Shown: piece after piece, positions 1-34,674 of the stretch
Numbering within the stretch: the stretch's first letter is position 1
Layout: every line of letters starts with the position of its first letter
From: an uncultured Bacteroidales bacterium
Lineage (GTDB): Bacteria; Bacteroidota; Bacteroidia; Bacteroidales; FEN-979
Assembly (NCBI GenBank): GCA_903925275.1
Contig: CAIYES010000375.1
Coordinates: 1 to 34,674, forward strand
Length of the DNA: 34,674 bases
Direction of reading: 5' to 3'
The notes under the pieces: generated by a model
Told to the model about the DNA's origin: nothing
Seen by the model: the letters and a program-made list of their open reading frames with translations, nothing else
The model's database searches: none
Position numbers and translations under genes: made by a program

Positions 1-35
1 TCACCCGTTCACCCGTTCACCCGTTCACCCGTTCC
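1..35. repeat. 9-bp tandem array (CACCCGTTC family), cut by window edge
   Basis: About four perfect copies of CACCCGTTC read on the plus strand and run off the left edge. The array begins 8 nt beyond the stop codon of the minus-strand korB gene, so on the korB sense strand it reads as repeated GAACGGGTG in the 3' flank. The same unit recurs near 5.1-5.3 kb, 20.5-20.6 kb and inside the E2 gene near 26.56 kb. Confidence 0.9.
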
Positions 36-43
36 CTTGTCCC

Positions 44-1081
44 TCAAATCTCCCAGGTATCTCCCGAATTCAACAAATCATCTACATTCTTGATCTTAGA
101 AGTTTCCCTTGCATATTTAATCTGTTCTTCCACGAGATCATCATAGGTGGGATACATGGCCGAACGGATCACACCAAAAACCATCGGAAAATGAGGTGGT
201 GCCAGTTTGGCAAGCATGAGCTGTATTCCGGGATCCTGGCTGTACTGGTCATGAACGAGGATATCATCAATGCCAATGCCATTTTTCCCAATTTCAACCA
301 CTTCCAGCATGGTATCTTTCAGGATAAGACCCTTTTCGTTGTTTTTGCCGAAAACCATCGGTGCTCCGTTTTTAAGGATAAGCATGGTTTCGTCTTTCAC
401 ATCTTTGCCGGTTACAGGGGCATGGGCCTTATCCGCAAAAATGATGCAGTTCTCCATGATCTCGGTCACAGAGGTTCCATCGTGTTTTGCAGCTTCGAAC
501 ATGCATTCGGTCATCAAGGCGATGTTGTTATCAGGAACGCGGGCAAAGAAGGTGCCCTGGGCGCCCATCACAAGTTCACCGATGTTGAAAGGGTGCTCAA
601 TGGTTCCCATGGGCGAGGTTTTGGTGACCTTGCCCATCGGGGTAGTAGGTGAAAATTGTCCCTTGGTAAGTCCATATATCTGGTTGTTGAACAACAGGAT
701 ATTCAGGTCAACATTGCGGCGGATCACGTGGATGAAATGATTTCCGCCGATTGCCAGTGAATCTCCATCGCCGGTGACCGTCCATACGCTCAGGCGGGGG
801 TTGGCAATTTTCACACCTGTGGATATAGCTGCGGCACGTCCATGGATGCCATGGATGCCATAAGTGTTCACATAATAGGGAAACCGGGATGAACATCCGA
901 TACCGGACACCATACAGAAATTTTCCTTGCGATAACCTATTTTGGGGAATACACGTTCCACGGCGCTAAGAATGGCATGGCCTCCGCATCCCGGGCACCA
1001 TTTTACCATCTGGTCACTTTCAAAATCTGCTTTGCTGAGTTGAACATTGGTACGTTCAACAGTCATATTTATGAAATCCAT
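44..1081 (-). CDS. korB: 2-oxoacid (2-oxoglutarate-type):ferredoxin oxidoreductase, beta subunit
   Basis: Thiamine-diphosphate-binding beta subunit of a ferredoxin-dependent 2-oxoacid oxidoreductase, which decarboxylates a 2-oxoacid to an acyl-CoA and reduces ferredoxin in the cytoplasm. The N-terminus has WCPGCGGHA (Cys29 and Cys32, likely Fe-S ligands). The TPP motif GDGDSLAIGG is followed by NNQIYGLTKGQ, the usual beta-subunit signature. Length 345 residues fits the Bacteroidetes KorB type. The start at 1081 lies 1 nt after the korA stop, with GGAGG about 10 nt upstream inside the end of korA, so the pair is translationally coupled; Met6 is a less likely start. Substrate preference (2-oxoglutarate rather than pyruvate) is inferred from overall resemblance and the two-subunit layout. 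Confidence 0.9.
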   Translation of the reverse strand: MDFINMTVERTNVQLSKADFESDQMVKWCPGCGGHAILSAVERVFPKIGYRKENFCMVSGIGCSSRFPYYVNTYGIHGIHGRAAAISTGVKIANPRLSVWTVTGDGDSLAIGGNHFIHVIRRNVDLNILLFNNQIYGLTKGQFSPTTPMGKVTKTSPMGTIEHPFNIGELVMGAQGTFFARVPDNNIALMTECMFEAAKHDGTSVTEIMENCIIFADKAHAPVTGKDVKDETMLILKNGAPMVFGKNNEKGLILKDTMLEVVEIGKNGIGIDDILVHDQYSQDPGIQLMLAKLAPPHFPMVFGVIRSAMYPTYDDLVEEQIKYARETSKIKNVDDLLNSGDTWEI

Positions 1082-2955: not shown

Positions 2956-2985
2956 CAAAGTTACTCAATAAACTCAAAAGGCAAA
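2956..2985 (-). promoter_or_regulatory. Bacteroidetes-type promoter of korAB
   Basis: On the minus strand TTTG (2985-2982) is followed after 18 nt by TAACTTTG (2963-2956). This fits the Bacteroidetes consensus TTTG-N(19-21)-TAnnTTTG apart from a slightly short spacer. The expected transcription start leaves a leader of about 16 nt before the korA ATG at 2933. The -33 element falls inside a degenerate heptamer array. Confidence 0.55.
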
Positions 2986-3013
2986 GTACAAAACTCAAAA
3001 CTTAAAGCCAAAA
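2972..3013. repeat. degenerate 7-bp tandem array (ACTCAAA-like)
   Basis: Six consecutive heptamers can be aligned: ACTCAAA, AGGCAAA, GTACAAA, ACTCAAA, ACTTAAA and GCCAAAA. They fill the middle of the divergent korA-ferredoxin gap. Each unit ends in AAA, so the array also sets the phase of A-runs in the promoter region. It is one of several period-7 arrays in the window. Confidence 0.5.
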
Positions 3014-5094: not shown

Positions 5095-5316
5095 CACCCG
5101 TTCACCCGTTTACCCGTTTACCCGTTCACCCGTTTACCCGTTTACCCGTTCACCCGCTCACCAGTTCACCCGCTCACCAGTTCACCCGTTCACCCGTTCA
5201 CCCGTCTACCCGTTTACCCGTTCACCCGCTCACCCGTTCACCCGCTCACCCATTCACCCGTTCACCCGCTCACCCGTTCACCCGTTCACCTGTTTACCCC
5301 CTCACCCGCTCACCAG
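5095..5316. repeat. large 9-bp tandem array (CACCCGTTC family), about 24 units
   Basis: About 24 copies of CACCCGTTC and variants (CACCCGTTT, CACCCGCTC, CACCAGTTC) fill the whole gap between the lipoprotein start and the Nudix gene, and extend into the Nudix 3' end. Because the period is a multiple of three, the plus strand stays open over the entire array and would encode repeated VHPFTRLP-type peptides. That plus-strand frame has no start context or non-repeat sequence, so I do not call it a gene. Confidence 0.93.
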
Positions 5317-5745
5317 CATACCAACAATAAACCTATCAATCGGAAAAGTGAAAATCTCCTCATTCAGTTCATCAAGTCTCACCCACCGGAAACTTTGTGC
5401 CCCATCAAATGGAGGGATATCATTTTTTTTAAGCGTGGTTTGAAAACGATAAGGTTTTTCGGCTTTCACCCGGTAGTAAATATTAAAAAGCTGCATATCA
5501 GATGGGAGAAGGGTGGTAGGCTGATAGAAGTCAGTTGTATAAAAATGTGAAATGATTTCAATCGGGGTGTTCAGTTCCTCCATAAATTCACGTTTCAGGC
5601 AGTCAATCGTACCTTCACCAAATTGAAGTCCTCCACCAGGAAACTTGGTCATGTAAATTCCAAGCCTGAATTCATCGGTAACAAGAACACTGCCTTCGTC
5701 AAGGAGAAATCCGTAAACCCTGATGTTGAACTGATTGACTGCCAT
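5302..5745 (-). CDS. Nudix hydrolase
   Basis: A 147-residue Nudix-fold protein. The Nudix box is readable as GGLQFGE-x7-REFMEELNT, i.e. the metal-binding REUxEE core is intact while the usual Gly after it is replaced. The family hydrolyses nucleoside diphosphates linked to another group; the substrate cannot be told from sequence. The start is set at MAVNQFNIRVYGF (5745), since the upstream in-frame start is GTG and the added residues are not conserved-looking. The last residues (VSG) and the TGA stop are written in units of the adjacent 9-bp repeat, so the array has become the end of the gene. The upstream region carries copy 2 of the 130-bp palindromic element. Confidence 0.85.
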   Translation of the reverse strand: MAVNQFNIRVYGFLLDEGSVLVTDEFRLGIYMTKFPGGGLQFGEGTIDCLKREFMEELNTPIEIISHFYTTDFYQPTTLLPSDMQLFNIYYRVKAEKPYRFQTTLKKNDIPPFDGAQSFRWVRLDELNEEIFTFPIDRFIVGMLVSG

Positions 5746-9509: not shown

Positions 9510-10205
9510 TCATTTTTTCGTTGCGCGCAGTACATGCCTTTTCCCTGGAGGACCGGGTAATTTTTCGGTACTGAATCCTGCTGCATGCAACGCCCTTACT
9601 ACAATACCCTTTACGGAATAGGTCACCAATATACCCGACGTTGACATTCCGTAGCAGAGCTGATGGAATATTTGCTCAGTCCAGAGTTCCGGCTGGGCAT
9701 CCGGACCAAACGCATCAAAATATACGAGGTCGGACGAACCAGGTGGAGGCAGATACGTTTCGATTGTGCCATGGATCTTTTCAAGCGTGAAATGCGGGGA
9801 GATCTCTTCAGGTACGTTCCAGTTTGCAAGGTGCAGTTTCGCAAAGAGGTGCGAATAATCAGCTGAACCGAACAGATGCGGGTAGTTCAGCGCTTGCCAG
9901 TAGTTCATTTCCAGCGGAAATGGCTCAATGGCAGTATAGTGTACACTGATTCCATATTTTTCAGCCTCTGCCAGGGTCAGGAAGGCATTTAGGCCGGTAC
10001 CGAAACCGATTTCAAGGATATTGAGGAACCCAGCACTGTTGCCGATACCGGGATGAAATTTCCCGATTGCACACAGGAAGCCGTTTTCAATAAAAATATG
10101 CTTTGATTCCTGCAAAGCCCCATGGATGGAATGATAATGTTGATTCAAATCGCGCCTGAAAAGCGTGTCGGAGCCATCAGCAGTTTTTATTAACGCTAAC
10201 ACCAT
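9510..10205 (-). CDS. mnmD: tRNA (mnm5s2U34) methyltransferase MnmD
   Basis: A 231-residue stand-alone methyltransferase of the MnmC/MnmD (DUF752) family. It transfers a methyl group from S-adenosylmethionine in the last step of 5-methylaminomethyl-2-thiouridine formation at the tRNA wobble position. The SAM motif is LEIGFGTGLNAF; the family-specific YFDAFGPDAQPELWT and PGPPGKRHVLRA segments are present, and the N-terminal DGSDTLF...QHYHSIHGALQES is typical. There is no FAD oxidoreductase domain fused at the C-terminus, as usual outside Proteobacteria. The ATG lies inside a short 9-bp repeat run 17 nt after the E1 stop codon, so the gene is probably co-transcribed with E1. No Shine-Dalgarno-like sequence is seen. 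Confidence 0.9.
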   Translation of the reverse strand: MVLALIKTADGSDTLFRRDLNQHYHSIHGALQESKHIFIENGFLCAIGKFHPGIGNSAGFLNILEIGFGTGLNAFLTLAEAEKYGISVHYTAIEPFPLEMNYWQALNYPHLFGSADYSHLFAKLHLANWNVPEEISPHFTLEKIHGTIETYLPPPGSSDLVYFDAFGPDAQPELWTEQIFHQLCYGMSTSGILVTYSVKGIVVRALHAAGFSTEKLPGPPGKRHVLRATKK

Positions 10206-10228
10206 CTCACCATTTCACCATTTCACCA
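10203..10228. repeat. short 9-bp repeat run at the E1-mnmD junction
   Basis: On the minus strand three units of the type GAAATGGTG/GAGATGGTG join the two genes. The first unit contains the TGA stop of E1 and the last contains the ATG start of mnmD. It is the CACCATTTC variant of the 9-bp family seen pure at 20571-20612. Confidence 0.75.
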
Positions 10229-12625
10229 AATCCTTGGATACCTGTTGGGATTGTACTCATGCATCATGCCGTAAACAGTTTCGAACACATCTTCGGCATT
10301 GGGGTTGGAAAAGTAATCGCCATCGTTGGTATACGCCGGTCGATGGTCATTGGCTGTGAGGGTACGTGGTTCAGCGTCGAGGAATCGATAACCGCCCTGG
10401 TCTTCCATGACCTTTTGCATCATGAATGCAGTAGCGCCACCGCTGCCATCTTCGTCGAAAAACAGGATCTTATTGGTCTTTTTAAGTGATTTCAGAATGT
10501 CATGGTTGATATCAAATGGGAGAAGGGTCTGCACATCGATCAGTTCGACAGAAATGCCAAAATCCATGATCTGAGGAAGAGCTTCCTGGGCGATCTTTAC
10601 ACATGATCCATAGGTGACGATGGTAATATCGGAACCCTCCTGCAATACTTCAGGGGCGCCTAGCGGGATGCGGTAGTTCCCGATGTTCGCCGGCATCTGT
10701 TCCTTCAGGCGGTAACCATTAAGCGGTTCGATAATCAGTCCTGCATCATCTGAAGCCATCATGGTGTTGTAAAATCCTGCTGCCTGAGTCATGTTACGGG
10801 GAACCATAACATAGATGCCCCTGATGGAATTGATCACCATGCTCAGTGGGGAACCTGAATGCCAGATTCCAACAAGACGGTGGCCACGGGTGCTGATGAT
10901 AAGGGGTGCCTTTTGCCCGCCAACGGTGCGGTATTGCGTAGTAGCAAGGTCGTCGCTCATCACCTGCAGGCCATAGAGCAGATAGTCGAAATATTGAATT
11001 TCAGCAATGGGGCGTAAACCGCGTAACGCCATCCCAAGTCCCTGCCCGATAATAGTGGCTTCGCGGATGCCGGTATCTGAAATCCGCGTTTCACCGTACT
11101 TTAACTGCATTCCTTCCAGCGTTTGGTTAACACCGCCGATCTTACCGACATCTTCTCCAAAGATCAGCGCCAGCGGGTTGTTTTTGAATAGAATGTCATA
11201 GTTGGCGTTCAAAATTTCACGTCCGGTTACCACAGGGGAGTTTTCGTTGAATACCGGCGGGATACCGGCAATCTTAAGGGCGCTCTGTGCCGATTCACTG
11301 TAAAGATGAGAACTGTAGCGGGCTACGTTGAGTTTACGCTGTTCGGCCATCCAGATATCGAGGTCGGCTTTCATCGGCTTTTTCATGCTGCATGAGGTAC
11401 ATACATCCCGCATGATTTTTTTAGCTGCTGAAATGATGTCTTTTCGGATAGGCTCCGAAATGGCTTCGAGGTCAGCCACGATCTTGTCGATGCGGGCCTG
11501 TTTCTTGCAGGGGCAGTGGGTTGTTTTTACAACACTGACAAGATGTTCCCGTTCAGTTTTAAATGGGGTAAGAAATGCTTTCCATCCCCTGTCACGGGCG
11601 CTTTTAGCAGCAATAACTGCACCGTTTTCGATATCATCCAACTCTTTGGCGGTCGCAATTTTTTCGCCGAGAATCCATTCGCGCATCCTTGGAATACAAT
11701 CGTGATCTTTTTCCCAGGCCAGACGCTCTGCTGATTTGTAGCGTTCGTGCGAACCTGAAGTGGAGTGACCCTGGGGCTGGGTCAGCTCTGTTACATGAAA
11801 CACTACAGGCACCTGCTCTTTTCTGCAGATCGCCATTCCTTCTTCATACATATCATACAACGCTGCATAATCCCATCCATTGGCCGTATAAAGGCGGATA
11901 CCGGGCTTCTGCTCATCAGCAACAAAGCCTTTCAGCAGCGCCGAGATATCCTCTTTGGTCGTCTGGTATTTCTTTGGAACGGAAATCCCGTAACCATCGT
12001 CCCATATTGAAAGCGCCAGTGGCACCTGCAAAACCCCGGCTGCATTGATGGTTTCAAAAAAATGGCCTTCGGAGGTAGATGCATCGCCGATCATCCCAAA
12101 GGCAATTTCATTTCCCTTGACAGTGAATTTTTTAGCCGCATCCCACATTTCGGGACTATTGCGAAATACTTTCGAAGCAAGGGCTAGTCCAAGCAACCGG
12201 GGCATCTGCCCTGCCGTGGGTGAAATATCCCCCGAAGAATTCTTCTGCCGGGTGAGATCCTTCCATTCTCCTTTCTGGTCGAGGCTTCGGGTGGCAAAAT
12301 GAGAGTTCATCAACCGTCCGCCATTATCAGGATTACGAGTCAGATCAGTGTCCCCGTATAACTGTGCAAAAAATATGTCGAGTGATGATAATCCCGCAGC
12401 CATCATGAATGTCTGGTCACGATAGTAACCCGAACGCCAGTCGCCATCCTGAAAAAATTTAGCTTTCACAATCTGTGGAATCTCTTTCCCGTCACCGAAA
12501 AGCCCGAAGTTAGCCCTTCCACCTAGAACCTCACGCCGCCCAAGTAAACTAACCTGACGGCTCTCGTTTGCTAATTTATAATCCTTAAGAACCTCCTCTT
12601 TGCTGAATTTCCTCTTTTTTGCCAT
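10223..12625 (-). CDS. fused alpha-beta E1 component of a 2-oxoacid dehydrogenase complex (branched-chain/pyruvate type)
   Basis: An 800-residue TPP enzyme. The N-terminal half is the alpha domain (FGMIGDASTSEGHFFETINAAG with IWDDGYGISVPKKYQTT, near residues 175-225). The C-terminal half is the beta domain (IFGEDVGKIGG, TRGHRLVGIWHSGSP, VTYGSCVKIAQEAL, FFDEDGSGGA). It decarboxylates a branched-chain 2-oxoacid or pyruvate and passes the acyl group to lipoyl-E2. The matching E2 is encoded at 26.2 kb; no E3 is visible. The alpha-beta linker carries two cysteine pairs (Cys371/Cys373 and Cys409/Cys412), which I do not expect from the core fold. Substrate is uncertain between branched-chain 2-oxoacids and pyruvate. 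The mnmD gene follows 17 nt downstream. Confidence 0.85.
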   Translation of the reverse strand: MAKKRKFSKEEVLKDYKLANESRQVSLLGRREVLGGRANFGLFGDGKEIPQIVKAKFFQDGDWRSGYYRDQTFMMAAGLSSLDIFFAQLYGDTDLTRNPDNGGRLMNSHFATRSLDQKGEWKDLTRQKNSSGDISPTAGQMPRLLGLALASKVFRNSPEMWDAAKKFTVKGNEIAFGMIGDASTSEGHFFETINAAGVLQVPLALSIWDDGYGISVPKKYQTTKEDISALLKGFVADEQKPGIRLYTANGWDYAALYDMYEEGMAICRKEQVPVVFHVTELTQPQGHSTSGSHERYKSAERLAWEKDHDCIPRMREWILGEKIATAKELDDIENGAVIAAKSARDRGWKAFLTPFKTEREHLVSVVKTTHCPCKKQARIDKIVADLEAISEPIRKDIISAAKKIMRDVCTSCSMKKPMKADLDIWMAEQRKLNVARYSSHLYSESAQSALKIAGIPPVFNENSPVVTGREILNANYDILFKNNPLALIFGEDVGKIGGVNQTLEGMQLKYGETRISDTGIREATIIGQGLGMALRGLRPIAEIQYFDYLLYGLQVMSDDLATTQYRTVGGQKAPLIISTRGHRLVGIWHSGSPLSMVINSIRGIYVMVPRNMTQAAGFYNTMMASDDAGLIIEPLNGYRLKEQMPANIGNYRIPLGAPEVLQEGSDITIVTYGSCVKIAQEALPQIMDFGISVELIDVQTLLPFDINHDILKSLKKTNKILFFDEDGSGGATAFMMQKVMEDQGGYRFLDAEPRTLTANDHRPAYTNDGDYFSNPNAEDVFETVYGMMHEYNPNRYPRIW

Positions 12626-12670: not shown

Positions 12671-12698
12671 AATTAATAATTAAAAATTAATAATTACG
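12671..12698. repeat. 7-bp tandem array (AATTAAT family)
   Basis: Four heptamers AATTAAT, AATTAAA, AATTAAT, AATTACG follow without spacing. The array lies upstream of the E1 gene and 18 nt from a second heptamer array of unrelated sequence (12717-12779). A 4-bp simple repeat (TTGA/TTGG) fills 12627-12654, so almost the whole 155-nt gap is repeat. Confidence 0.6.
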
Positions 12699-12716
12699 AA
12701 TGACTATATCCCAAAA

Positions 12717-12779
12717 TCACTTGTCACTTGTCACTCGTCACTTGTCACTCGTCATTTGTCACTCGTCATTTGTCACTCA
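12717..12779. repeat. 7-bp tandem array (TCACTTG/TCACTCG family), nine units
   Basis: Nine heptamers in perfect register: TCACTTG twice, then alternating TCACTCG, TCACTTG and TCATTTG forms. It ends 1 nt before the rubrerythrin stop codon. Read on the rubrerythrin strand it is repeated GTGACAA/GTGACGA, the same family and same orientation relative to the gene as the array after the hydrogenase at 34624-34674. Confidence 0.9.
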
Positions 12780-12780
12780 A

Positions 12781-13359
12781 TTAATAGTTTTCCTGCATCA
12801 CCTCAAAATAGGCTATGGGATGGTTGCAAGCCGGGCAGTTTTGCAATGCTTTGATTCCGTAATGGACATAGCCGCATTTTCGGCAGATCCAGTATGTTTT
12901 TTCATCTTTTTCAAAGACCTTGTTTCTTTCAAGGTTATTCAACAATTTACGATAACGTTTTTCATGATGTTCTTCAACCGTAGCGATCAGTTTAAATGCT
13001 ATGGCAGCTTTTTGAAATCCTTCCTCTTCAGCAATTTTGGAGAATTCAGGATATAATTCCGTCCATTCTTCATGCTCCCCTTCAGCAGCGGCTTTCAGGT
13101 TCTCAGCGGTAGTACCGATGATACCACCCGGATAAACTGCCGTGATTTCAATGGCGCCTCCCTCAAGGAAACGGAAAAAGCTTTTGGCATGTGACTCCTC
13201 ATTCAGAGCAGTCTCGGTAAAGATTGCGGCGATTTGTTCAAATCCCTCTTTTTTTGCCTGTTTTGCAAAAAAAGTATACCGGTTTTTTGCTTGTGATTCC
13301 CCTGCAAATGCTTTCAGCAGGTTCTTTTCTGTGCGGGTTCCCCTGATGCTCTTTTCCAT
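12781..13359 (-). CDS. rbr: rubrerythrin
   Basis: A 192-residue two-domain peroxide-scavenging protein. The N-terminal ferritin-like four-helix domain carries the di-iron ligands (AGESQAKNRYTFF, NEESHAKSFF, AEGEHEEW, VEEHHEKRY). The C-terminal rubredoxin-like knuckle is WICRKCGYVHYGIKA...CPACNHP with four Cys. It reduces hydrogen peroxide to water with electrons from rubredoxin in anaerobes. A rubredoxin gene lies immediately upstream on the same strand and a peroxidase pair follows beyond it, forming an oxygen-defence neighbourhood. The start at 13359 (MEKSIRGTRTEKNLL) is the family-typical one; an upstream extension of eight residues is not conserved-looking. Confidence 0.95.
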   Translation of the reverse strand: MEKSIRGTRTEKNLLKAFAGESQAKNRYTFFAKQAKKEGFEQIAAIFTETALNEESHAKSFFRFLEGGAIEITAVYPGGIIGTTAENLKAAAEGEHEEWTELYPEFSKIAEEEGFQKAAIAFKLIATVEEHHEKRYRKLLNNLERNKVFEKDEKTYWICRKCGYVHYGIKALQNCPACNHPIAYFEVMQENY

Positions 13360-13384
13360 AATTGAATGGTTAATTTTGAACAAT

Positions 13385-17477: not shown

Positions 17478-18032
17478 TTACTGCACCAAATGTACCGCTT
17501 TGAGCAAACTCTTCCCGATTTCAATTGCTTTTTCATTCTCAGGAATGAGGGCATGGTGGCGTGCCGGAAGTGACTTTTCGAGTCCTTTGTGGATGTATTC
17601 GGGAGCTACCAGTGGTTTTAATTTCAAAAATCCGCCGAGCACGACCATGTTGAAAATCTTTGAGAGACCCTGCCTAGCCGCTTCATCTGCTGCCTCGATC
17701 GAGTAGATGTTAATGTCTTTGCGTTCCGGGAAGCGGGTGAGTCCATTGGGGTCATAAATGAGTAATCCGCCAGGTTTGACAGTTTTCTCAAATTTATCCA
17801 TTGATTGCTGGTTCAGGATGATGGCTGTATCGTAGGAGTTCAGGATAGGAGAACTGATACGCTCGTCGCTGATGATTACGGTAACATTGGCTGTTCCGCC
17901 ACGCATTTCAGGCCCGTAGGATGGCATCCAGCTCACCTCCTTATTTTGCATTACACCCGAATAGGCGAGAATCTTTCCCATGGATAGGACTCCCTGTCCA
18001 CCAAAACCTGCAATAATAATCTCTTCAGTCAT
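17478..18032 (-). CDS. 2-oxoacid:ferredoxin oxidoreductase, gamma subunit
   Basis: A 184-residue gamma subunit. It has the N-terminal IIIAGFGGQGVLSMGKIL motif and SWMPSYGPEMRGGTANVTV, both diagnostic for the POR/KOR gamma family. It is the last gene of a delta-alpha-beta-gamma set and completes the four-subunit enzyme that oxidises a 2-oxoacid (branched-chain or 2-oxoglutarate) with reduction of ferredoxin. It is separated from the beta gene by 167 nt, while the other junctions are 2-20 nt, and that gap contains a heptamer array ending directly at its start codon. It could therefore be a separately translated or separately transcribed unit. Confidence 0.9.
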   Translation of the reverse strand: MTEEIIIAGFGGQGVLSMGKILAYSGVMQNKEVSWMPSYGPEMRGGTANVTVIISDERISSPILNSYDTAIILNQQSMDKFEKTVKPGGLLIYDPNGLTRFPERKDINIYSIEAADEAARQGLSKIFNMVVLGGFLKLKPLVAPEYIHKGLEKSLPARHHALIPENEKAIEIGKSLLKAVHLVQ

Positions 18033-18033
18033 A

Positions 18034-18075
18034 ATATTGGAATATCGAATATTGAATAACGAATTTCGAATTTCG
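18034..18075. repeat. 7-bp tandem array (AATATCG/AATTTCG family)
   Basis: Six heptamers in register: ATATTGG, AATATCG, AATATTG, AATAACG, AATTTCG, AATTTCG. On the minus strand the array runs straight into the start codon of the gamma subunit, so it occupies the ribosome-binding region of that gene. The rest of the 167-nt gap has no recognisable feature. Confidence 0.7.
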
Positions 18076-18199
18076 AACGGATTGTTATGATAAACTTCGA
18101 TGTATGAACAAGAAATACTACCCTTTAATTCACAAATCAGTTTTATTCTTAATCATTGAGCCTGGACCTGAAAGTCAAAAAAAATATTTCAACTTGAAA

Positions 18200-20515: not shown

Positions 20516-20612
20516 TTCACCCCTTCACCCCCTCACCCGTTCACCCGCTCACCCGTTTACCCCTTCACCCGTTCACCATTTCACCATCTCCCCATTTCAC
20601 CATCTCACCATT
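20516..20612. repeat. 9-bp tandem array, two variants joined
   Basis: The left part is CACCCGTTC-type (20516-20573). The right part is CACCATTTC/CACCATCTC-type (20574-20612). Together about ten units fill the 3' flank of the aminotransferase gene, starting 15 nt after its stop. The two variants meeting in one array show that they belong to one family. Confidence 0.88.
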
Positions 20613-20627
20613 TTCTTCTCTACCTCA

Positions 20628-21944
20628 CTACCCACTGTGGTTTTCCCTGAACTTTCTCAGCCGTTCTTCAAGTGCAGGAAACTGATCCCGTTTGACTAAC
20701 GAAACGCAGGCCCGGATACCCTCTTTTCGATGGCTGCCGGTTATGCTGAGGGCGATGGCGCTGATACCATAATATAATAGCTCTTCCAGCAGGGCTTCCC
20801 CATCGATACCGGGAAAAGAAAAAGTAAAGTAAAATCCGTCGGCAAGGGGTACTCCTTCATCCTGGTCATAAACGATCCTGAATCCGTTGTCGATGAACAA
20901 CTTTTTCATGATTTTCGCCTTTTCGCCATATTCCCTTACCACCTCCACGAAATCGAAAGTACCGTCGTTAGCGGCTTTCAGCATTGCTGCCATGCCATAT
21001 TGTGTGGAATGGGCCGTACCGGCGCTCAATGCGTATACAGTACCATAAATCAGCGCCCTTCCAACGATGTCGGTTGAGTAGTATCTGAGCAGGTCGGCTG
21101 AGCAGGTATTGAAAAGTTTATTCGATACGATCATCATCCCGATGCGTTGCCCGGCGTAGCTGAATGCTTTTGAACTTGAGATCAGCAACACATAGTTGTC
21201 GGTGTACTTGGCCACTGTTGGCTGGTAGGGAGGCTGCCCGGGTTTTGAATAATCTTTGCGAAAATCCATGGCAAAATAAGCAAGGTCTTCGATGATGATC
21301 ACATTGTACTGGTTGGCGAGTTCGCCGATGATCTGCAATTCATGATCAGTGAAGCATATCCAGGAGGGGTTGTTCGGATTTGAATACAAAACTGAATGAA
21401 TGTTCCCCTTTTCAAAATAGCTTATTAGCTTATCTCTCAGTTTATCTCCGCGGAAATCATATACATCAAAAGTCTCGAATTTCTGTCCCAGCACTTTATG
21501 CTGCTGATGATGTACCGGAAAACCTGGGTCGATGAAAAGCGTGGTATCTTTGTCACGATGGATCTTCGAAAAGGTCAAAAATGCGGCAAACCCTCCCTGC
21601 ATGCTACCAACGGTCGGCACACAATTGGCGGCATCTACATCAATGTCGAGGAACAGTTTGACAAACCGGGCAGCCTCTTTTTTCAGAACAGGTGTTCCTT
21701 CAATGTCGGGATAGATCGCGGCAACTCCATTACGCAAAGCCTCAATCTCAGCCTCTATACCTATTGCAGTAGCCGGGAGACCAGGAACTCCCATCTCCAT
21801 CCGGATAAATTTTTCACCGGTTTCCGTTTCAATGCCATTAATCAACCGTTTTATTTCGCGGATGGTCGCTTTTCCGATGTTACGGATTTTGCTTTCCTGT
21901 ATATGCCGGTGAACCACTTCGTAACTGATAGGTGTATCTTTCAT
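20628..21944 (-). CDS. PLP-dependent aminotransferase, class I/II
   Basis: A 438-residue fold-type I aminotransferase. Landmarks are YPDIEGTPVLKKEAA, YSNPNNPSWICF (substrate/PLP region), IIEDLAYFAMDF (Asp contacting PLP) and SSSKAFSYAGQRIG with the Schiff-base Lys. A late SITGSHRKEGIRACVS provides the conserved Arg. It is a little longer than typical (about 400). The amino-acid substrate is not identifiable; location between a VorB-type enzyme and a T9SS protein is consistent with amino-acid catabolism but does not prove it. The start at 21944 is the first ATG; the extended N-terminus (SYEVVHRHIQESKIRNIG) is family-like. Confidence 0.87.
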   Translation of the reverse strand: MKDTPISYEVVHRHIQESKIRNIGKATIREIKRLINGIETETGEKFIRMEMGVPGLPATAIGIEAEIEALRNGVAAIYPDIEGTPVLKKEAARFVKLFLDIDVDAANCVPTVGSMQGGFAAFLTFSKIHRDKDTTLFIDPGFPVHHQQHKVLGQKFETFDVYDFRGDKLRDKLISYFEKGNIHSVLYSNPNNPSWICFTDHELQIIGELANQYNVIIIEDLAYFAMDFRKDYSKPGQPPYQPTVAKYTDNYVLLISSSKAFSYAGQRIGMMIVSNKLFNTCSADLLRYYSTDIVGRALIYGTVYALSAGTAHSTQYGMAAMLKAANDGTFDFVEVVREYGEKAKIMKKLFIDNGFRIVYDQDEGVPLADGFYFTFSFPGIDGEALLEELLYYGISAIALSITGSHRKEGIRACVSLVKRDQFPALEERLRKFRENHSG

Positions 21945-26228: not shown

Positions 26229-27479
26229 ATGGCAATAGAAATTAAAGTTCCCAGTCCGGGGGAATCGATAACCCAGGTACAGCTTGCCAAATGGCTCGTT
26301 TCTGATGGTGAAACCGTGGAAAAAGATCAGGAAATTGTTGAAATCGATTCCGACAAAGCGTCATTTCCGGTTACTGCACCCGAAGATGGTGTGATAAAAA
26401 TTATGGCGAAGGAAGGTGAGACCATTGCCGTGGGGGCAGTACTGGCGATTCTTGAAGAGCTGAACGGACAAACTCAAAAATCAAAAGTCAAAAATCAAAA
26501 TGAACCCATAAAAATCACCACTCCGGACCCTGCACCATCTCCGGTTCAAAACATACCTGTTCACCCGTTCACCGGTTCACCAGTTAATTTACACGCTTCT
26601 CCACTCGCCTTGAAAATTATCGGAGAGAAACAGGTGAATCCAATTGACCTGAGCAATGCTTTCCCTGGGAAAAAAATAACACGGAAAGATATCGAATCGT
26701 TTATCAATCTTAAAAAAGAGCAATCGGCCACAGTGGCCTTTACCGGTTCACGCGAAGTTGACCGTAAAAAACTGACCACCCTTCGGCTGAAACTTGCAGA
26801 ACGCCTGGTTGCAGTAAAGAACCAAACAGCCATGCTGACGACCTTCAACGAGATCAACATGCAGGGGATCCTGAAAATCAAAGATAAATACAGCGAATCA
26901 TTCAGGGAACGGTTTGGTGTTGGCATCGGATTCATGTCGTTTTTTACCAAAGCTGCCATCATTGCATTGAAGGACTTTCCTCAGGTCAACTCGATGCTCG
27001 ATGGCGATGACCTGGTCACCCCCCGTTATGTTGACATCGGCATAGCTGTCAGCGCCCCCAAAGGTTTAGTCGTTCCTGTGTTGCGCAATGCAGAGATGAT
27101 GAGTATTGCAGAAATCGAACTTAAAATTAAAGAGCTTGCCGGTAAAGCCCGTGAAAACAGGATAACGATCGACGACATGAAGGGAGGAACCTTTACCATT
27201 ACCAATGGTGGAGTTTTTGGATCGCTCATGTCAACACCGATTTTAAATCCGCCGCAGAGTGCGATTCTCGGCATGCATAAAATCCAGGATCGTCCGATTG
27301 CGGTAAACGGCCAGATAGTCATTGCTCCCATGATGTATGTCGCACTGTCCTATGATCACCGTGTAATCGATGGCCGTGAATCGGTGAGTTTCCTCATCAG
27401 GATAAAGGAGTTATTGGAGGACCCGGCTAAGATGCTTACAGAAGGATTGGATCCGATCAGGTTATTGCTCGACCTATAA
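26229..27479 (+). CDS. dihydrolipoamide acyltransferase (E2) of a 2-oxoacid dehydrogenase complex
   Basis: A 416-residue E2. Lipoyl domain at residues 1-77 with lipoyl-Lys43 (EIDSDKASF), peripheral subunit-binding domain near residues 122-160 ([19 protein letters not shown]...[11 protein letters not shown]), and catalytic acyltransferase domain from about residue 180 with the active-site HRVIDGR (His377, Asp381). It transfers the acyl group from lipoate to CoA. The likely partner is the fused E1 at 10.2-12.6 kb. The first linker (residues about 82-120) is built largely from a heptamer and a 9-bp DNA repeat, giving NQ/KSK-rich and [10 protein letters not shown] peptides. The nadB gene follows 9 nt downstream. 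Whether it serves branched-chain, pyruvate or 2-oxoglutarate E1 is open. Confidence 0.88.
26474..26585 (+). repeat. coding heptamer and 9-mer arrays in the E2 linker
   Basis: Four heptamers (TCAAAAA, TCAAAAG, TCAAAAA, TCAAAAT) occupy 26474-26501. A three-unit run of the 9-bp family (CCTGTTCAC, CCGTTCACC, GGTTCACCA) occupies 26556-26585. Both are read in frame. Only the stop-free strand of the 9-bp repeat is on the sense side. Confidence 0.85.
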
Positions 27480-31040: not shown

Positions 31041-32834
31041 ATGGCAAAAATTAAATATCATATACTTGTTTGTGGCGGAATTAGTTGTCACGCTTCAAAA
31101 AGCGAAGATATCCTGAAAAATTTTCAGGATTTAATTAAGATGAAGGGACTTGAAAACGAGGTTCAGGTAATCAGGACAGGTTGTTTCGGATTTTGTGAAA
31201 AGGGTCCCATCGTCAAAATGATGCCTGACAATACTTTTTACTTTCAGGTCAAACCCGAAGATTGTGCGGAAATCCTTGAAGAGCATATTATCAAAGGAAA
31301 AAGAGTTAACCATTTGCTTTACCGGGATCCTGTAACTCAGGAATACAAAAGCGATTCACAGCCCATCGGTTTTTACAAAAAACAGATCCGGATTGCCTTG
31401 CGGAATTGCGGGTTCATCAACCCTGAAAATATTGACGAGTACATCGCACGGGATGGTTATCAGGCATTGGGAAAGGTTCTTACGGAATTAACGCCTGAAG
31501 CCACCATCGAAATACTTAAGAAATCAGGACTTCGCGGACGTGGCGGCGGTGGATTCCCTACTGGTATCAAATGGGAAATCACGCGTGCTGTCAAAGCCGA
31601 TCAGAAATATGTTGTTTGCAATGCTGACGAAGGAGACCCGGGAGCTTTTATGGACCGGTCTGTTCTGGAAGGCGACCCGCATAGCGTACTCGAGGCAATG
31701 GCCATCAACGGTTATTGCACCGGCGCTGATAAGGGTGTCATCTACATCCGTGCTGAATACCCGTTAGCCGTTGAACGCCTTAAAATCGCCATGAAACAGG
31801 CCAGGGAATATGGTCTGCTTGGAAAAGATATTCTTGGCACCGGTTTTAATTTCGACATTGAAATCCGGTATGGTGCCGGTGCCTTTGTTTGCGGTGAAGA
31901 GACAGCATTGATTCATTCAATGGAAGGACTTCGGGGTGAACCAACGGTTAAACCTCCATTTCCCTCCGAATCAGGATTTCTTGGCAAACCTACCAACGTA
32001 AATAATGTTGAAACCTATGCCAATATCCCGGCAATTTTTCTAAAAGGTGCGGAATGGTATGCAAGCATCGGTACTGCAAAATCAAAAGGAACAAAAGTCT
32101 TTGCACTGGCAGGTAAAATTAACAATGTGGGTCTCATTGAAGTGCCCATGGGAATTACCCTTCGCGAAATTATCTTTGAGATCGGCGGCGGGATAAAAAA
32201 CGACCGGAAATTCAAAGCCGTCCAAACCGGTGGGCCTTCCGGAGGTATGCTTACCGAAAAAGACCTCGACACGCCAATTGACTATGATAATCTGATCGCT
32301 GCAGGATCCATGATGGGATCAGGCGGAATGATCGTGATGGACGAAGATGACTGTATGGTGGCCATGGCTAAATTCTATCTTGAGTTTACGGTTGAAGAAT
32401 CCTGCGGAAAATGTTCACCCTGTCGCATCGGCAACAAGCGGTTGTTTGAAATGCTTGAAAAGGTCACCCAGGGTCACGCCGTCATGGAAGATCTCGATAA
32501 ATTGCGCAACCTGAGTTTTGTGATTAAAGATACTTCGCTTTGCGGACTTGGTCAAACTTCTCCGAACCCTGTTCTTTCATCATTGGATAATTTCTACCAC
32601 GAATATCTGGAACATGTTGGCGATAAAAAATGCCGTTCCGGGAGTTGTAAGTCCCTTATGCAATACATCATCAATGCGGAAAACTGCATTGGATGTACCC
32701 TGTGTGCCAGGAATTGTCCGGTCGACGCCATTGCAGGCGAACGCAAGCAGGCACACCTGATTGACCAGGAAAAGTGCATCAAATGCGGAGCATGCATGGA
32801 GAAATGTAAATTCAATGCGATTTTTATTAAATAA
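31041..32834 (+). CDS. hndC: NuoF-like NAD(P)H/flavin subunit of bifurcating [FeFe] hydrogenase
   Basis: A 597-residue HndC/HydB-type subunit. An N-terminal [2Fe-2S] thioredoxin-like domain has Cys11/16 (LVCGGISC) and Cys48/52 (TGCFGFC). The FMN/NADH region follows (GRGGGGFPTGIKWE, NADEGDPGAFMDRS, YGAGAFVCGEETALIHSMEG). A [4Fe-4S] motif (ESCGKCSPCRIG with a later Cys) and two C-terminal [4Fe-4S] clusters (CIGCTLCARNCP, CIKCGACMEKCK) complete it. It exchanges electrons between NAD(P)H, ferredoxin and the hydrogenase subunit in the cytoplasm. hndD follows after 13 nt. Confidence 0.92.
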   Translation: MAKIKYHILVCGGISCHASKSEDILKNFQDLIKMKGLENEVQVIRTGCFGFCEKGPIVKMMPDNTFYFQVKPEDCAEILEEHIIKGKRVNHLLYRDPVTQEYKSDSQPIGFYKKQIRIALRNCGFINPENIDEYIARDGYQALGKVLTELTPEATIEILKKSGLRGRGGGGFPTGIKWEITRAVKADQKYVVCNADEGDPGAFMDRSVLEGDPHSVLEAMAINGYCTGADKGVIYIRAEYPLAVERLKIAMKQAREYGLLGKDILGTGFNFDIEIRYGAGAFVCGEETALIHSMEGLRGEPTVKPPFPSESGFLGKPTNVNNVETYANIPAIFLKGAEWYASIGTAKSKGTKVFALAGKINNVGLIEVPMGITLREIIFEIGGGIKNDRKFKAVQTGGPSGGMLTEKDLDTPIDYDNLIAAGSMMGSGGMIVMDEDDCMVAMAKFYLEFTVEESCGKCSPCRIGNKRLFEMLEKVTQGHAVMEDLDKLRNLSFVIKDTSLCGLGQTSPNPVLSSLDNFYHEYLEHVGDKKCRSGSCKSLMQYIINAENCIGCTLCARNCPVDAIAGERKQAHLIDQEKCIKCGACMEKCKFNAIFIK

Positions 32835-32847
32835 CCGGGAGGAATAC

Positions 32848-34620
32848 ATGGAAATGGTAAAACTGACCATCGACGGAAAACCTGTTGAGGTCGAAAAAGA
32901 TACAACGATTTTAAAAGCTGCCAAAACAATTGGCATAGATATACCTACCCTTTGCTACTTTCAACTCAAAGACATGAACATTGAAAACCGTCCGGGCGGT
33001 TGCCGCATTTGTGTGGTTGAAGTGGTCGGGCGGCGAAACCTCGCTCCTGCCTGTTCTACCAATGTAGCTGAGAAAATGGTTGTTAATACACACTCTATCA
33101 GGGTACTTAACGCACGTCGTACTGTTCTGGAGTTAATTCTCTCCGATCATCCTGCTGAATGTCTAACCTGTGCCAAATCGGGCTATTGTGAGCTCCAGAC
33201 CATGGCACAGCAACTCGGCGTACGCGAATTACCTTATCAGGGTGAGCAATCCACCTACCGCAAGGATACTTCACCTGCCATTATCCGCGACGTTGACAAA
33301 TGCATCATGTGCAGACGTTGCGAAATGATGTGCAATGATGTACAAACAGTTGGTGCGCTTTCGGCCGTCAACAGAGGGTTTATGGCTGTTGTGGCTCCGG
33401 CATTTGAAATGAATCTTGAGAAATCTCCCTGTACTTACTGTGGCCAGTGTGTTTCTGTTTGTCCAACCGGTGCACTGACCGAAGTGGATCACTCGCGCAA
33501 CGTGATCAATGCATTGGCAGATCCGAAAAAGACAGTGGTTGTTCAAACAGCGCCTGCCGTTCGCGCTGCACTTGGAGAAGAATTTGGCCTTGCGCCAGGC
33601 ACTCTTGTAACGGGTAAGATGGTCGCAGCACTCAGACGACTAGGCTTTGACTACGTGTTCGACACCGATTTTGCTGCCGACCTGACTATCATGGAAGAAG
33701 GAAGCGAATTACTCGACCGCCTTACCCGTTACCTTAAGGGTGACAAAAATGTAAAACTACCCATCCTCACCTCCTGTTGCCCGGGTTGGGTGAATTTCTT
33801 TGAGCATAACTTTCCCGATCTGATGGATGTTCCTTCAACGGCCAAATCGCCTCAGCAGATGTTCGGCCCCATTGCAAAGGAATATTTCGGCAAGAAACTT
33901 GGCATTGAACGCAAGAACATGATTGTAGTTTCAATCATGCCTTGCTTAGCCAAAAAATATGAATGTCAGCGCGATGAGTTTAAAGTAAATGGAGATCCTG
34001 ATGTTAACTTCTCCTTGTCAACCCGTGAACTGGCACATCTGATCAAATTTGCCAACATTGACTTCAACAGTTTACCCGATGAGGATTTTGACAACCCCCT
34101 TGGTGAATCTACCGGCGCCAGTGTTATCTTTGGAAATACCGGTGGTGTGATCGAAGCTGCATGCCGCACTGCTTATGAACTTTATACAGGTAAAAAACTT
34201 GAAAAAGTTGAATTCAATGAATTGCGCGGTTTGGAAAATATTCGTCATGCCACGCTTGATTTCAATGGTTTACCGATTAATATAGGCATCGCCCACGGAC
34301 TTGGGAATGCGCGGAAACTTCTTGAAGATGTTCAGGCCGGCAAGAGCCAGTTCCATGCAATCGAAATTATGGCCTGTCCGGGCGGTTGCATCGGAGGTGG
34401 TGGCCAGCCATTCCATCATGGTGATTCAGAGATAATTAAACAACGTGCTGCGGCACTTTACCGTGAGGATGCCGGGAAACCAATTCGTAAATCGCACGAG
34501 AACCCATTCATCCTTGAACTTTATAAAGAATTTTTAGGTAAACCATTGAGCGAAAAGTCGCACCACCTGCTGCATACCCATTACTTCGACAAAAGTAAGG
34601 GATCGTTTGTGGAAGAGTAG
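32848..34620 (+). CDS. hndD: [FeFe] hydrogenase catalytic subunit (HndD/HydA-type)
   Basis: A 590-residue multi-domain [FeFe] hydrogenase. Order: plant-type [2Fe-2S] domain (residues 1-80, with GGCRICVVEV), His-Cys [4Fe-4S] motif (HPAECLTCAKSGYCELQ), two bacterial [4Fe-4S] motifs (CIMCRRCEMMC, CTYCGQCVSVCP), then the H-domain. All three H-cluster signatures are intact: L1 TSCCPGW (308-314, with the proton-relay Cys after Cys310), L2 MPCLAKKYE (364-), L3 EIMACPGGCIGGGGQP (Met508-). It makes or consumes H2, coupled to ferredoxin and NAD(P)H through HndB/HndC. The ATG at 32848 has GGGAGGA upstream, so the 29-residue upstream extension is rejected. The stop is followed at once by a heptamer array. 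Confidence 0.95.
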   Translation: MEMVKLTIDGKPVEVEKDTTILKAAKTIGIDIPTLCYFQLKDMNIENRPGGCRICVVEVVGRRNLAPACSTNVAEKMVVNTHSIRVLNARRTVLELILSDHPAECLTCAKSGYCELQTMAQQLGVRELPYQGEQSTYRKDTSPAIIRDVDKCIMCRRCEMMCNDVQTVGALSAVNRGFMAVVAPAFEMNLEKSPCTYCGQCVSVCPTGALTEVDHSRNVINALADPKKTVVVQTAPAVRAALGEEFGLAPGTLVTGKMVAALRRLGFDYVFDTDFAADLTIMEEGSELLDRLTRYLKGDKNVKLPILTSCCPGWVNFFEHNFPDLMDVPSTAKSPQQMFGPIAKEYFGKKLGIERKNMIVVSIMPCLAKKYECQRDEFKVNGDPDVNFSLSTRELAHLIKFANIDFNSLPDEDFDNPLGESTGASVIFGNTGGVIEAACRTAYELYTGKKLEKVEFNELRGLENIRHATLDFNGLPINIGIAHGLGNARKLLEDVQAGKSQFHAIEIMACPGGCIGGGGQPFHHGDSEIIKQRAAALYREDAGKPIRKSHENPFILELYKEFLGKPLSEKSHHLLHTHYFDKSKGSFVEE

Positions 34621-34623
34621 TCC

Positions 34624-34674
34624 AAGTGACAAGTGACGAATGACAAGTGACGAATGACAAGTGACAAGTGACAA
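34624..34674. repeat. 7-bp tandem array (GTGACAA/GAATGAC family), cut by window edge
   Basis: Seven heptamers, AAGTGAC and GAATGAC types, begin 3 nt after the hndD stop codon and run off the window. They are the reverse complement of the TCACTTG/TCACTCG array after rubrerythrin, so relative to the upstream gene both arrays point the same way. Confidence 0.9.

Follow-up and report, generated by a model that had tools for sequence, protein, structure and literature searches.

Tandem arrays with 7-, 8- and 9-bp units at the gene borders of a Bacteroidales genus, and the strand on which they lie

A contig of 34,674 nucleotides from an uncultured Bacteroidales bacterium, referred to here as the window, carries short tandem arrays at a number of its gene borders, and raises the question of what holds the length of the repeated unit while its sequence changes, and of what decides where, and on which strand, such arrays lie. 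The window is one contig of a 5.65-Mb genome in 574 contigs, hereafter the own genome. An initial annotation, made from the window alone, proposed that heptamer arrays of unrelated sequence recur through it with a period that is always 7, and that a common generating mechanism, rather than the spread of one sequence, lies behind them.

Arrays in the window and in the genus

The heptamer arrays are real at five sites. Tandem Repeats Finder places period-7 arrays at 12671-12696, 12717-12777, 18040-18077, 26470-26500 and 34623-34674, every one with a score of at least 45, which no period-7 row reached in 60 Markov-shuffled windows. The ACTCAAA array claimed at 2972-3013 is recovered at 2970-3006 with 70% matches and a score of 32, and is not beyond chance, since 0.58 period-7 rows with a score of at least 30 are expected per shuffled window. 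The array described as coding at 26474-26501 does lie in a gene, that of the acyltransferase at 26229-27479. The period, however, is not always 7, for the largest array of the window is octameric (5095-5314, 27.5 copies by Tandem Repeats Finder), other octamers are found at 1-34, 10200-10228, 20516-20613 and 26555-26585 (the last with a score of 41), and the genome also has 9-bp arrays. Nor do the heptamers all differ in sequence, as the two strongest share one unit on opposite strands, TCACTTG at 12717-12779 being the reverse complement of CAAGTGA at 34624-34674, and a view of the arrays as all unrelated is at odds with the count for three TCACTYG units at up to two mismatches, which match the own genome 451 times with overlaps counted, against once for the reversed control pattern. 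A heptamer (26470-26500) and an octamer (26555-26585) both fall in the interval between the lipoyl and catalytic domains of one E2 gene, so arrays occur in a protein linker too.

Table 1. Tandem arrays of the window and the genes that adjoin or contain them
Feature	Position	Strand	Remarks
Octamer array AACGGGTG	1..34	minus	past stop of gene 44-1081 (minus); contig start falls inside array
ACTCAAA array	2970..3006	.	weak, within chance
Octamer array AACGGGTG	5095..5314	minus	27.5 copies; overlaps TGA stop of NUDIX gene
NUDIX gene	5302-5745	minus	TGA stop covered by array 5095-5314
Octamer array AAATGGTG	10200..10228	minus	spans TGA stop of gene 10223-12625 and start of gene 9510-10205
E1-dehydrogenase/transketolase-like gene	10223-12625	minus	
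AATTAAT heptamer array	12671..12698	minus	start side of rubrerythrin gap; 45 bp before start of gene 10223-12625
Heptamer array	12717..12779	minus	purine strand AAGTGAC on minus; starts 5 bp past rubrerythrin gene stop
Rubrerythrin gene	12781-13383	minus	Pfam PF02915
POR gene (Pfam POR)	17478-18032	minus	
Heptamer array GAATATC/AATTTCG	18040..18077	minus	7 bp before start of gene 17478-18032
Octamer array AAATGGTG/AACGGGTG	20516..20613	minus	starts 16 bp past aminotransferase gene stop
Aminotransferase gene	20628-21944	minus	
2-oxoacid dehydrogenase acyltransferase (E2) gene	26229-27479		Pfam domains at residues 4-75 and 176-403
Heptamer array	26470..26500	plus	within acyltransferase gene 26229-27479, between lipoyl and catalytic domains
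Octamer array	26555..26585	plus	coding stretch of acyltransferase gene 26229-27479
Iron-only-hydrogenase-like gene	32761-34620		stop 2 bp before array 34623-34674
Heptamer array	34623..34674	plus	purine strand AAGTGAC on plus; 2 bp past stop of gene 32761-34620

Beyond the window, the own genome was sampled as 61 sequences, namely 20 contigs taken at even steps, 20 of which 8 had AAGTGAC hits, 20 that all had such hits, and the window itself. Stretches of a second genome of the genus (G018) were placed at AAGTGAC-family hits and contigs of a third (G003) were taken from those named in hit lists; because part of the contigs and stretches was chosen by such hits, array densities are biased upward for the AAGTGAC family. 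Among periods 4-13, 40 contigs and the window hold 23 arrays of period 7, 13 of period 8, 9 of period 9 and 1 of period 6 with a score of at least 16, and none of periods 4, 5 or 10-13; Markov-shuffled sequence gave none at any of these periods and the same score. With stricter scoring and periods 3-24, the 20 even-step contigs (154 kb) contain six arrays of period 7, three each of periods 8 and 9, two each of periods 14 and 16, and one each of periods 12 and 21, heptamers being the largest class (6/18), and in the whole own-genome sample, with contigs partly chosen for AAGTGAC hits, heptamers make up 68 of 124 arrays. Across the seven genomes sampled in the genus, the period is 7, 8 or 9 in 307 of 316 arrays; for G013 and G009, whose samples are small, octamers equal or outnumber heptamers. 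The excess at 7 that a period histogram was expected to reveal is therefore present, but 7 is only one of three neighbouring periods.

The leading families are AAGTGAC at period 7, AACGGGTG and AAATGGTG at period 8, and AATGCAGAC at period 9, and the recurrence of one or two such families per period throughout the genome speaks against the initial dismissal of the spread of one sequence. Within arrays, neighbouring units differ (1109 transitions and 446 transversions), and species differ in their GTGACNN-family unit spectra (n = 6 to 280 units). Of 61 genomes, 14 have TCACTYG arrays: the genus accounts for 13 (out of 19, with the own genome among the 13) and another family for one. Octamer arrays are present in congeners; among 119 genomes drawn from the order, with the own genome as the sole member of its genus, the octamer pattern occurs in one genome (the own) and the nonamer in two. 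In the phylum as a whole, the TCACTYG heptamer is found in 16 of 395 Bacteroidota genomes, mostly with few matches. At least 250 matches are found in four genomes (G254, G266, G274 and G289) of two other families, three being from one family and two of these congeneric; some congeners of the four in the phylum sample have no TCACTYG matches. The reversed control pattern reaches 24 matches in one Bacteroidota genome, and other heptamers therefore behave similarly.

Placement and strand at gene borders

With genes called by a custom, simple hexamer-based caller in place of a standard one, 283 of the 316 arrays lie outside genes or at a gene edge, and 33 inside. Many start right at a stop codon, and in gaps between co-directional genes 117 of 198 arrays are closer to the stop, the median gap being 15 bp to the stop and 56.5 bp to the start. 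Where an array covers the stop codon, that codon is TGA in 36 of 46 cases, against 341 of 1135 genes without a stop-adjacent array (p = 5.6e-11), and the arrays themselves thus supply stop codons; where the array starts past the stop, TGA is found in 15 of 83. In the window, arrays overlap two stops, that of the NUDIX gene (5302-5745) and that of the gene at 10223-12625. At two loci (L065 847-1051 and L047 3981-4093), an AATGACA-type unit and its near complement lie head to head in called ORFs, a few bases apart, and could form long hairpins.

The unexpected part of the finding is the dependence of the strand on the side of the gap. In co-directional gaps, 75 of the 86 arrays that lie no more than 15 bp from a stop have their purine-rich strand in sense, but only 9 of the 47 that are no more than 40 bp before the next start and not near a stop do (p = 4.7e-15); the remaining 65 arrays are balanced (35 purine-sense), and gaps free of arrays display no difference between stop and start (127 and 150 of 308). 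Leaving out the AAGTGAC family gives 41/48 near stops versus 9/34 near starts, and AAGTGAC itself flips with place, as its purine strand is in sense beside 20 of 24 stops but beside none of 6 starts, the units AAAACTT and AAATCGT being exceptions to the rule. When stop codons alone are used, with no start calls, the purine-rich strand is sense at 111 of 127 gene ends, a count from which exactly half-purine arrays are left out (elsewhere they are scored as not purine-rich).

The cut-offs were picked after inspection of the data, and a re-test over 20 settings gave p values from 1.6e-15 to 3.2e-7; a nearest-end rule with no cut-off, which omits three arrays equidistant from both genes, gave 92/117 purine-sense at stops versus 25/78 at starts. 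Convergent and divergent gaps, which played no part in setting the rule, follow it as well: at the nearest stop of convergent gaps 23 of 26 arrays are purine-sense (26/34 with no distance limit), and near the starts of divergent gaps 11 of 16 are not (17/24 with no distance limit). Array pairs within one gap run purine first and then pyrimidine in 23 of 28 cases, one stop-side array entering two pairs. Polarity is significant in each of the own genome, G018 and G003, the other four samples being too small to test; in the count by stop codons alone, G014 by itself has 3 purine-sense and 3 antisense arrays. Some arrays may be shared by descent among related genomes, and the counts are therefore not fully independent.

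Outside the genus the picture is mixed. In 59 viral stretches, where related phages have possibly been counted repeatedly, arrays other than TAACTGA are purine-sense in 25 of 28 cases at stops versus 9 of 24 at starts (p = 1.2e-4), and TAACTGA arrays take the opposite orientation at stops (32 versus 1) and are split 13 and 9 near starts. At 68 Bacteroidota loci from outside the genus the polarity was not seen (purine-sense in 11/17 at stops and 5/7 at starts), and neither these loci nor the viral TAACTGA arrays support a universal polarity. Four IMG/VR stretches (L269-L272), with a GC content of 0.58-0.65 and phage-like by eye, have AAGTGAC arrays at gene borders, L269 among them carrying seven heptamer arrays that comprise several units. 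TCACTTG is not special in viral contigs, its exact 25-mer being found in 4 stretches, that of its reversal in 3 and that of TAACTGA in 52 (L283-L334). For the 58 viral TAACTGA arrays with two flanking genes, the gene orders are << in 42, >> in 11, >< in 3 and <> in 2, and most arrays are antisense to both genes.

The gap beside the rubrerythrin gene allows one site to be followed across species. It was compared in 13 genomes, the window included, whose 800-aa neighbour protein is at least 90% identical, with records of the same place (L096/L182, L254/L152 and L264/L150) each counted once. In eight of the 13, an array begins no more than 8 bp past the same stop, and these arrays have seven different units: AAGTGAC (twice), ACGCGTG, ACGAGTG, ACACGTG, AAATAAC, AACTGCC and the octamer ACTGGCGG. 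The period is 7 in seven of the eight, and all but AACTGCC are purine-rich in sense. On the start side, five of the 13 genomes have an octamer, four of which are pyrimidine-rich in sense and one (AAAGTAAC) purine-rich. A fixed period with a changing unit at one gap fits turnover by slippage, that is, the gain and loss of units. No array was found in the rubrerythrin gap of five more distant relatives, and the other orthologous gaps examined were mostly free of arrays or had them in few species. The 800-aa protein of a record titled Alphaproteobacteria bacterium (L157) is 86% identical to that of the own Bacteroidales genome, and the record is therefore probably misnamed or misbinned.

Origin of the arrays and of their polarity

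The best explanation, to which we give a probability of roughly 0.55, is that these arrays are border satellites grown by slippage, with the strand set by the adjoining transcript. It takes as its observed part the periods, the placement, the differing units at one gap, the TGA stops within arrays and the polarity. Satellites of 7, 8 or 9 bp would grow by slippage at gene borders, where the gain or loss of whole units would hold the period, and point mutations spreading within an array would let its sequence drift. Coding sequence would limit the arrays, many of which start at the stop, and those that cross a stop provide one, mostly TGA. The neighbouring transcript would then set the strand, purine-rich in sense after a stop and pyrimidine-rich in sense before a start. 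The common generating mechanism first proposed is supported by the preferred unit length and by the orthologous gap that keeps its period while the unit changes.

On the start side, the cause may be the removal of extra ATG or GTG codons, which are present in the sense unit of 52 of 86 arrays near stops and 2 of 47 near starts. Near starts, units with no ATG or GTG on either strand lean weakly (purine-sense in 8 of 25), and the avoidance of false starts may be enough to account for this side. Where the two strands of a unit do not differ in stop and start codons, arrays are purine-sense in 8 of 11 cases at stops versus 4 of 11 at starts (p = 0.2). On the stop side, the cause would sit in the stretch of transcript directly after the stop, which ribosomes no longer cover, and would act on the growth or the survival of arrays; this site is favoured since the polarity is not explained by stop codons within the unit. 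Neutral slippage with a stop-codon filter and nothing else, by which arrays that invade a gene survive if their sense strand brings a stop, would account for the TGA stops covered by arrays, and for the 82 sense against 11 antisense cases among units in which the purine strand alone carries a stop (units with stops on both strands are 3 sense and 3 antisense). We nonetheless regard such a filter as a doubtful explanation. At gene ends, units whose two strands are both free of stops are purine-sense in 21 of 21 cases, in 14 of which the array leaves the stop codon uncovered; where only the pyrimidine strand of the unit carries a stop, 5 arrays are purine-sense and 2 antisense; and arrays separated from the stop by 3-15 bp are purine-sense in 29 of 38 cases, or 20 of 22 where the next start is more than 40 bp away. 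Since the stop-free units are wholly polar, stop codons cannot be the whole cause on the stop side, and as the sole cause of gene-end polarity they are rejected. A more general reading, which we put forward tentatively, is a strand code of gene borders, under which only arrays with a purine-rich sense strand would be born or kept past a stop, where ribosomes have left the transcript, and only those free of start codons would survive before a start, with little dependence on the unit and in common with unrelated phages, TAACTGA being the exception to explain. For instance, purine-rich nascent RNA might re-anneal to the template and promote slippage past the stop.

An alternative origin of the arrays is a mobile or copying mechanism that would seed one unit at many gene ends in a fixed orientation. 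REP elements, for instance, have a palindromic unit and are spread by a RAYT transposase; the arrays described here are direct repeats. The presence of a single unit at many sites of the own genome, the patchiness of the TCACTYG family among Bacteroidota (four genomes, from two other families, reach at least 250 matches) and its occurrence in viral contigs all favour copying, but unit spectra vary by species, and neither element ends, target duplications nor a clear junction between empty and filled sites was evident by eye in the printed orthologous gaps, so that seeding of this kind seems unlikely. A one-directional mutational bias of transcription is also unlikely on its own, because polarity flips inside one gap in most of the array pairs. 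That ordering is what would be expected if the purine and pyrimidine arrays of a gap paired in RNA, as a stem-loop that serves as terminator or barrier to decay; some arrays of one gap form near-exact inverted repeats with each other, and Xanthomonas has convergent inverted pairs according to the available text of PMC4692102. Many partners, however, have unrelated units or different periods, and real partners pair no better than those swapped between gaps (-15.25 versus -14.69 kcal/mol, 0.36 of permutations being as good), which leaves same-gap hairpins without support and makes this alternative improbable.

There is very little chance that the arrays are an artefact of assembly, a possibility raised at the outset. 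In the own genome, where contigs were partly selected for arrays, 12 of the 88 contig ends sampled lie no more than 60 bp from an array, although arrays make up 1.16% of bases, and the window itself both starts (1-34) and ends (34623-34674) within one. Many arrays are nevertheless internal to contigs and lie between conserved genes, and an artefact is unlikely because one gap holds arrays in MAGs from several different lakes, and arrays are also present in viral contigs. The arrays do seem to break contigs, and their lengths are for that reason unreliable.

Relation to known repeats

Heptanucleotide tandem arrays are known in cyanobacteria as STRR. The arrays of this genus resemble them, as far as the available description goes, in being tandem heptamers, and occur in other hosts. 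A search of open-licence papers on repeats and R-loops returned no described rule of array orientation, and the literal string CACTTGTCACTTG was found in the full text of one fungal paper only. To judge from the available parts of PMC4679880 and PMC4692102, the heptamer excess, the closeness to gene ends and the mixture of heptamers in Bacteroidetes are already published. The initial suggestion that a multi-family set had not been described in Bacteroidetes was too strong, as arrays mixed with other heptamers are reported for Gramella, Aequorivita and Elizabethkingia in the portion of PMC4679880 consulted.

That account concerns TAACTGA direct repeats, which are distributed patchily among marine Beggiatoaceae, Cyanobacteria and some Bacteroidetes (PMC4679880, in part). 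Heptamer arrays, mixed heptamers in Bacteroidetes and patchiness are shared with the arrays here. In the type genome, however, the same available text places TAACTGA mostly just upstream of start codons and in forward orientation, whereas the arrays of this genus lie mainly after stops and have other units, TAACTGA being absent from the listed arrays of the own genome and G018. The viral TAACTGA arrays, mostly antisense, likewise differ from those of Beggiatoaceae, reported as forward in that text.

A second likeness is to the GGGAATC repeats of Xanthomonas, which, in the available part of PMC4692102, are dispersed, mostly intergenic heptamers lying 28 nt from the 5' ORF versus 160 nt from the next. 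Dispersed intergenic heptamers, a position nearer the 5' ORF and convergent inverted pairs are features common to both. The orientations of the Xanthomonas repeats relative to co-directional genes are about equal in that text (30%/35% and 35%/35%), in contrast to the count at stops given above (111/127), and the octamer and nonamer families present here do not figure in it. A GGGANTN unit with a G-tract is not seen among the leading units of the genus, which are AAGTGAC, AACGGGTG, AAATGGTG and AATGCAGAC. The tandem repeats of Borgs, according to the part of PMC9879509 at hand, have perfect units of 18-21 nt and lie in ORFs in about half of cases; strand-biased A-rich units, some of them starting inside gene ends, and rapid evolution recall the arrays here, whose units, by contrast, vary within arrays and are mostly of 7-9 bp.

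The closest general class is that of prokaryotic long simple sequence repeats, with units of 5-11 nt among which heptamers are commonest (Mrazek et al. 2007, as related in the available parts of PMC4679880 and PMC4692102). The arrays here have units of 5-11 nt beyond chance length, and heptamers are commonest in the own-genome sample; unit length, heptamer excess and slippage as the proposed cause are common to both. A settled answer on the preference for units of about 7 bp and on the sites of growth is absent from the literature examined here, and a single genus with many arrays, many units and a simple strand rule at gene ends makes the role of transcription and translation in array growth testable. 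What distinguishes the arrays of this genus from long simple sequence repeats, as these are portrayed in the available accounts, is the strand polarity at gene borders and the turnover of units at the same site.
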